Positions 1-559 of a stretch of DNA of 64,000 nucleotides are shown one piece after another (the stretch's first letter is position 1; each line of letters opens with the position of its first letter). The DNA lies in contig JAPEUQ010000015.1 of NCBI GenBank assembly GCA_027946365.1, positions 868,001 to 932,000 of the forward strand, written 5' to 3'. A program made the position numbers and the translations under genes. Origin of the DNA: Kalmusia sp. IMI 367209. Taxonomy: Eukaryota > Ascomycota > Dothideomycetes > Pleosporales > Didymosphaeriaceae. The notes under the pieces were generated by a model. That model was given only the letters and a program-made list of their open reading frames with translations, did not search any database and was not told the DNA's origin.

Positions 1-21
1 ACATGTATTAATAATAGTCAG

Positions 22-483
22 ACAAGGGCCGCAAGAACAATCGTCGTGAGATTGCCATTGAAGAGCGCGACCCTCACCACAAGGGACGCAAGAATAATAA
101 GAGAGAGGTCGAGATTGAGGAGCGTGACCCCCATCATAAGGGCAGGAAGAACAACAAGCGCGAAATCGACATCGAGGAGCGTGATCCTCACCACAAGGGC
201 CGTAAGAACAACCGCCGTGAAGTTGAAATAGAGGAACGTGATCCTCACCATAAGGGTCGCAAGAACAACAAGCGTGAGGTTGAAGTTGAAGCTCGTGAGC
301 CCCATCACAAGGGCCGCAAGAACAACAAGCGCGAAGTGGAGATCGAGGAGCGTGACCCGCACCACAAGGGCCGTAAGAACAACCGCCGGGAGATCGACAT
401 TGAAGAGCGTGACCCGCACCACAAGGGACGCAAGAACAACAAGAGGGAACCCGAGGTTGATGTTGAGGCTCGCGAAGCCCACC
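22..483 (+). repeat. 57-bp coding tandem repeat, 8 copies
   Basis: Eight 57-bp units in phase with the reading frame. The dibasic codon pairs sit at 42, 99, 156, 213, 270, 327, 384 and 441, exactly 57 bases apart. Copies differ at many synonymous third positions. Units 5 and 8 also differ at amino-acid level (EARE in place of EERD). Confidence 0.92.
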
Positions 484-559
484 GTAAGTTACAACCATGG
501 TTCCCCACAATGTGACTAGGCTAACGTATCGCACAGACAAGGGACGCAAGGGTAACTAA
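22..559 (+). CDS. Tandem-repeat protein, Kex2-processed precursor candidate (5' partial)
   Basis: Exons 22-483 and 537-559. The gene runs off the left edge; bases 1-21 are the end of an upstream intron closed by cag at 19-21. The visible protein is eight copies of a 19-residue unit, typically KGRKNNKREVEIEERDPHH, plus a short KGRKGN end before the TAA at 557. Each unit has exactly one dibasic KR or RR pair, in the NNKR|E context a Kex2-type protease would cut. Predicted products are about 17-residue charged peptides such as EVEIEERDPHHKGRKNN, without Tyr, Trp, Phe or Cys. The dibasic pair is written with seven different codon pairs in eight repeats, so the protein sequence rather than the DNA is being kept. 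Known fungal relatives in architecture are Kex2-processed repeat proteins, including precursors of pheromones, repellents and dikaritins. The signal peptide would lie outside the window, so secretion is unproven. The alternative is a highly charged structural repeat protein. Confidence 0.7.

Follow-up and report, generated by a model that had tools for sequence, protein, structure and literature searches.

The first bases of the window (the whole stretch of 64,000 nucleotides that was analysed, contig C7 868001-932000 of a 42.8 Mb genome in 30 contigs) hold the last two exons of a gene for a tandem-repeat precursor. We read it from its sequence as a secreted KEP that would release the octapeptide HHKGRKNN through cutting at two kinds of site and removal of a dipeptide, and we give this reading an even chance of being right. 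In the proposed route, in which we infer every cleavage as well as the secretion, the ends of the peptide and its function, a Kex2-type protease would cut after the dibasic KR or RR in the secretory pathway and also at the end of an acidic linker, behind the Arg of its closing [I/V]xxR, a Ste13-type dipeptidyl aminopeptidase would take off DP, EP or EA, and a Kex1-type carboxypeptidase would trim KR/RR. The acidic linker would be discarded, much as the EAEA spacers of alpha-factor, and a single short basic peptide would be released in about ten copies, most likely HHKGRKNN, with HHKGRKGN from the last copy. Such a product might serve as an external signal, the likeliest use of a peptide made in many copies, or as a metal-binding peptide, as its N-terminal His-His suggests, and it would probably undergo no classical oxidation by the adjoining UstYa. 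If this is true, a survey in which KEPs are cut at KR, RR or KK alone would mis-state the product of the HHKG family; the conserved peptide would begin after a monobasic site and a dipeptide, which gives an exact mass to look for.

A precursor with repeated cores and two kinds of candidate cleavage site

The gene starts to the left of the window and is complete on L004, a stretch made of the window and 9 kb more leftward (window position = L004 position minus 9001), where it has four exons and encodes 233 amino acids (Table 1). Its introns of 49, 50 and 53 bases are all GT-AG, and introns 2 and 3 interrupt the core at the identical point (CAC C-AC AAG, the hyphen marking the intron). A preliminary description of this DNA, confined by the left edge of the window, had suspected a signal peptide. 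Once the contig is extended, a signal-peptide-like start is indeed present, MRFATIALLLGATSA, with MR, then a hydrophobic stretch and small residues before residue 16; on a hydropathy test only, the maximum over nine residues is 2.36 at this N-terminus versus 1.01 from residue 31 on. Pfam profiles gave no match above cut-off for the precursor, and the promoter and terminator scan, built on a bacterial consensus, is uninformative in a fungus.

Table 1. Positions of the precursor gene, of one example repeat unit and of related genes
Feature	Position	Strand	Remark
Precursor exon 1	L004 8707-8862	+	left of the window; exons 1 and 2 together 294 to 29 bases before window base 1
Precursor exon 2	L004 8912-8972	+	left of the window
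Precursor exon 3	window 22-483 (L004 9023-9484)	+	rest of core 2, cores 3-9, start of core 10; eight KR/RR sites before Glu
Precursor intron 3	window 484-536	+	GT-AG, 53 bases
Precursor exon 4	window 537-559 (L004 9538-9560)	+	rest of core 10 (HHKGRKGN), then stop codon
First dibasic site in the window (RR before Glu)	window 42-47	+	the rest follow every 57 bases to 441-446
Example linker, EIAIEER	window 48-68	+	the linker of every unit ends [I/V]xxR
Example X-Pro dipeptide, DP	window 69-74	+	between Arg and core; proposed Ste13-type site
Example core HHKGRKNN, copy 3	window 75-98	+	copies 4-9 every 57 bases to 417-440
UstYa gene	L004 7536-6586 (2415 to 1465 bases before window base 1)	-	four exons, 265 amino acids; PF11807 E 1e-52
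Paralogue on C23, six HHKG copies	G000:C23:246510-247593 (L051 4511-5594)	+	one-base frame shift in this assembly

The whole precursor contains ten HHKGRK cores, copies 1-9 reading HHKGRKNN (9 of 10 identical), and nine KR/RR sites followed by Glu, which delimit one unit of 22 residues and seven of 19, counting the sites (20 and 17 residues without them). Eight of the sites (five KR, three RR) lie in the window, with seven complete 19-residue units between them and 19 further residues past the last one; the ninth (RR), core copy 1 and the start of copy 2 are upstream. The regular tandem repeat of the preliminary description is thus real, eight sites at a 57-base period in an open exon, and its count of seven codon pairs at these sites was reproduced. 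Its eight repeats correspond to the eight sites and seven full units of the window, but the full gene has ten cores and nine sites, and a dibasic site that is always KR holds at five of the eight positions only. It had also noted repeats without Tyr or Cys; past residue 30 the whole precursor lacks these as well as Phe and Trp.

The second kind of candidate site closes the linker. In all ten units P4 is I or V and P1 is Arg, a pattern reached in at most 3 of 10 units in 200000 per-unit shuffles, a test that assumes independent copies, which these are not. An X-P or X-A dipeptide (DP in eight, EP and EA in one each) precedes the core in 10/10 units and stands behind this linker Arg, not behind KR/RR. 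RK occurs ten times in the precursor, once per core. The number of KR/RR pairs, nine, is not above that expected from composition (9.7, sd 2.4, in shuffled sequences), and the evidence therefore rests on their regular placement and on codon usage.

Codons of the core vary mostly synonymously: for copies 1-9 pS is 0.63, pN 0.011 and pN/pS 0.018, and with the tenth copy included pN is 0.030 and pN/pS 0.048. For the six-residue linker (copies 3-9) pN/pS is 0.14, above the core value. At the dibasic site K and R are exchanged, yet P1 is Arg in 9/9, encoded by five codons. A chance origin of the repeat was considered as well and is ruled out by the synonymous codon changes across copies.

Relatives and the ends of the proposed peptide

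A search of 5.8 billion proteins with the precursor (E up to 1; 7998 candidates sharing most words were scored) gave at least four matches among the candidates scored: P0001 (E 7.6e-24; sources jgi and ena), P0002 from Mytilinidion resinicola (1.7e-15), P0003 (0.02) and P0004 from Lophium mytilinum (0.05). Relatives are thus few, two of the four among the matches listed having E > 0.01, and a protein search with the leader (residues 1-60) found P0001 alone and no further relatives. A literature search for the core letters (PHHKG, HHKGRK, HHKGKG) matched one paper, which deals with beetles. The database protein of P0001 seemingly reads, by eye, through an intron after DPH, the same place as the repeated intron of the window gene; its last unit is probably mis-annotated, as far as the sequence tells.

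P0001, the closest relative among the matches listed, keeps KR/RR between its units. P0002, P0003 and P0004 keep the HHK repeat with no KR/RR separating their units: in P0002 and P0004 the one KR stands ahead of the first unit, P0004 has in addition one KK between units, and P0003 lacks any dibasic pair. The paralogue on C23 has HHKG directly after KR or RR in five of six copies and after LMPR in the other, with long spacers rich in Ala, Asn and Gly; it has no UstYa match near, the nearest listed on C23 being at 534105. Across the window gene, P0001-P0004 and the paralogue, Arg precedes HHK in 36/36 copies, at a distance of 0 (9 copies), 2 (24) or 4 residues (3), and every dipeptide in the gap is X-P or X-A; HHK copies in one protein share descent, so that counts of this type are not independent events. 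P4 is I, L, V or M in 24 of the 31 copies behind a monobasic Arg. The remaining seven, all in P0002 and P0004 (7 of their 14 HHK copies), read [SNK]C[VA]R, with Cys at P3 and no aliphatic P4, and every one of them lies between two cysteines; these units may form a disulfide loop rather than being cut.

Several observations argue for the octapeptide that begins at HHKG: the Arg before (X-Pro)HHK is conserved in all these copies, the dibasic pair less so; the pN/pS of the core is below that of the linker; and similar units of P0002 and P0004 differ by whole dipeptides (MEAR-DPSP-HHKG in P0002 versus LEAR-HHKG in P0004, and KCVR-DP-HHKG versus KCAR-HHKG). PMC8528282 describes an aliphatic P4 together with P1 Arg as the extended Kex2 preference, and PMC9769878 gives the Ste13 motif as XP or XA behind a Kex2 site, with D or E frequent as X. 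The kexin P-domain was matched once in the genome and DPPIV_N three times, one of these three matches being weak. Asp following Arg is not known as a favoured context for Kex2, which counts against a cut at the linker Arg. The octapeptide reading is weakened further because half of the HHK copies of P0002 and P0004 are without an aliphatic P4 and lie within Cys pairs, because the Ste13-type dipeptides stand behind the linker Arg and not behind KR/RR, and because relatives are few, copies non-independent and the dibasic count no higher than composition predicts.

Were only the dibasic sites cut, the products would be bipolar peptides of about 17 residues such as EVEIEERDPHHKGRKNN, as the preliminary description expected. 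KR/RR is the standard Kex2 site, it occurs once per unit, and P0001 retains it; we nevertheless hold this outcome to be unlikely, since P0002-P0004 combine the absence of KR/RR between units with Arg-(XP)-HHK, the linker is more variable than the core, and KR or RR directly precedes HHKG in most copies of the paralogue. Homologues with the repeat and without the dibasic pairs, which that description saw as telling against its proposal, exist in part: P0002-P0004 lack KR/RR between units (one KK in P0004), whereas P0001 does not belong to them. What survives of the proposal is a multi-copy precursor with Kex2-type sites and a signal-peptide-like N-terminus; the 17-residue product is poorly supported, and the different or unmodified peptide that it also expected may prove right.

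The adjoining UstYa gene and the other readings

The next gene to the left is a UstYa gene, divergent from the precursor gene, with start codons 1170 bases apart; the preliminary description had surmised that truncation at the left edge might hide such a neighbour. The genome holds a large set of UstYa matches (102, in about 70 gene-like groups), and about 1% of it lies within 3 kb of one; the rarity of such closeness argues for a link between precursor and UstYa, and a linear peptide leaves this adjacency unexplained. A tyrosinase gene beside the precursor, also envisaged in that description, was not found: the genome has 37 tyrosinase matches, and the nearest one on the precursor's contig is about 780 kb away. 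No tailoring family was found in ten scanned neighbouring frames on both sides (ten of 37 listed; small or many-exon genes could be missed), which correspond to thiamin pyrophosphokinase, SKN1/KRE6, a Zn-cluster protein, DUF7730, ADP-ribosylglycohydrolase, an mL44-like protein, PfkB, CAP, a kinase and one frame without match. Beyond the UstYa gene, at L004 5393 to about 5800 on the forward strand (about 3608 to 3200 bases left of window base 1), there is a small Cys-bearing protein with a signal-peptide-like start, MRFALLVFAIAVAASPFPWA, and HHNHHK further on.

The UstYa protein carries HQLQC and YLDHC instead of HxxHC twice and so lacks two of the four copper His. With four open exons and a conserved protein, the gene bears no mark of decay. 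A search for homologues gave 85 at E up to 1e-20; those nearest to our protein come from Paraphaeosphaeria, Paraconiothyrium, Bimuria and Didymosphaeria (80-83% identity in our own alignment), a result that puts the host in or close to the Didymosphaeriaceae. HxxHC is kept at the first motif in 68 of 86 rows, our protein included among the rows. The tree was built from 47 rows, our protein and 46 of the 85 matches, all named (five of the 46 shorter than 240 amino acids; unnamed matches and, of the named ones, P0049, P0056 and P0077 did not enter it). We infer from sequence that these homologues are orthologues, because the best other match in our own genome is just 41% identical. The motifs are intact in 31 of the 47 rows and altered in 16, which needs four changes on the tree and likewise on its strongly supported branches alone (bootstrap 4-5); a long-branch warning applies, Cytospora being among the long branches. 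All nine rows in the clade of our UstYa are altered. Lentithecium, the sister row of this clade, has intact motifs, and so have 22/22 rows of the large clade that includes Alternaria, Pyrenophora and Bipolaris. The nine altered rows all have Gln at the fourth position of the first motif and have all lost the first His of the second, and the two other His are kept in 8/9 and 6/9; both motif cysteines are kept in 47/47 rows of the tree. Altered HxxHC also occurs outside this clade, in P0014, P0024, P0031, P0032, P0036, P0046 and P0079, from the genera Massariosphaeria, Pleomassaria, Amniculicola, Lophiotrema, Clohesyomyces, Polyplosphaeria and Cytospora.

In CctR, another DUF3328 protein, the motif makes up a binuclear copper centre, and exchange of its His and Cys for alanine abolished all activity (PMC12435403); PMC12048977 names two HxxHC motifs as a mark of RiPP-related DUF3328. 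Because its motifs are altered and the CctR mutants lost activity, our UstYa is, by analogy, probably not a normal oxygenase, and its classical oxidation of the peptide is doubtful for the same alteration of the copper motifs. A literature search yielded no paper on altered HxxHC motifs among the matches listed. A fold search with a structure model of the UstYa relative P0006 (not our own UstYa; mean pLDDT 80) found nothing in the PDB at E 0.001 or below, and a PDB sequence search gave one match, at E 0.66. A clade in which the sequence is conserved but the copper motifs are not intact would be a natural test of non-catalytic DUF3328 roles in peptide maturation.

These findings bear on whether the precursor could be a dikaritin-like RiPP, whose core would be oxidised or cyclised, perhaps via His or Lys, by the adjoining UstYa alone or with another UstYa protein of the genome. 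The divergent UstYa neighbour and the rarity of such closeness would fit this idea, as would types G-3 and G-8 of Umemura 2020, which have HH motifs and mostly DUF3328 neighbours (PMC7329392). In the same paper, HH rates are alike with and without DUF3328 neighbours (5.7% and 3.9%), and the cores here lack Tyr, Phe, Trp and Cys, at least two copper His are replaced in 9/9 rows of the clade, and the gene is accompanied neither by a close tyrosinase nor, among the ten frames scanned, by a tailoring family; we consider a RiPP quite unlikely.

Two further readings have a slender probability. The precursor might be a secreted repeat protein, rich in His and Lys, that acts without being cut and binds, say, metal or cell wall polymers, as the Cys-flanked HHK units of the Mytilinidion and Lophium proteins and the relatives without KR/RR between units would allow; the regular protease motifs of the window gene, the dipeptide quanta and the strict core speak against it and make it very unlikely. 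Equally speculative is a copper-handling module, in which a branch of the binuclear copper DUF3328 family that lost copper His and kept its motif Cys would receive missing ligands from the His-His peptide, which would then belong to the metal site, or in which the peptide would be a copper-binding product bound and loaded by the former oxygenase.

That the precursor is the alpha-type mating pheromone of the species is least probable of all and such a role unlikely, in spite of the X-P/X-A dipeptides, a STE2 receptor gene in the genome and the fact that no repeat matched the Pleosporales PYGxPxG (hydrophobic x) or WC..GQ.C patterns (a weak test of absence), since the core is unlike both groups of Le Marquer 2019 (PMC6339444), almost all pheromone KEPs, with three exceptions, are without a DUF3328 neighbour according to Umemura 2020 (PMC7329392), and the paralogue and distant relatives bear HHKG in other architectures.

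Comparison with known repeat precursors

Like the dikaritins (ustiloxin, phomopsin and asperipin type), the window gene is a repeat precursor adjoining a UstYa-family gene; unlike them, it has a core without an aromatic residue, a UstYa without two copper His and no tyrosinase nearby. The dikaritin ether link uses a core Tyr, according to Umemura 2020 (PMC7329392), and the gene pair described here has neither an aromatic core nor two HxxHC motifs. A second KEP of this genome (G000:C25:98034-98513, reverse strand, in L052) has eleven TNIYPGIKYLG repeats with acidic linkers and KR between them; it is Tyr-bearing, in a dikaritin-like arrangement among UstYa matches, its first copy also follows Arg-Glu-Pro, and HxxHC motifs were found in frames of this stretch.

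With ascomycete alpha-factor and alpha-pheromone precursors our gene shares multiple copies, a Kex2-type site and X-P/X-A dipeptides ahead of the core. It differs in a core without Trp, Cys or PYGxPxG, in dipeptides that stand behind a monobasic Arg and in its UstYa neighbour.

With KEPs as described by Le Marquer 2019 (PMC6339444) and Umemura 2020 (PMC7329392) the gene shares a signal-peptide-like start and similar repeats, more than three in number, set apart by KR/RR sites. Under the criterion of the latter paper, three or more tandem repeats with a minimum length of 8 residues lie between KR, KK, RK or RR; here one 20-residue and seven 17-residue stretches lie between nine such sites. Among its types, G-8 has DUF3328 nearby in 45/49 and G-3 in 57/64, with a di-histidine motif with Pro. 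The HH motif with Pro and the nearby DUF3328 gene resemble G-8 (or G-3), and 9 of the 18 genera of G-8 recur among our UstYa homologues, including Paraphaeosphaeria and Periconia; many genera of the UstYa list, e.g. Alternaria, are absent from G-8 as given there, and the copper motifs are altered here. The precursor may belong to G-8. The KEP kind is already known; what sets this gene apart is a processing code proposed to include, besides the dibasic site, a monobasic one and an acidic linker, and what is added here is this two-site reading with a discarded acidic linker, together with the altered UstYa partner.
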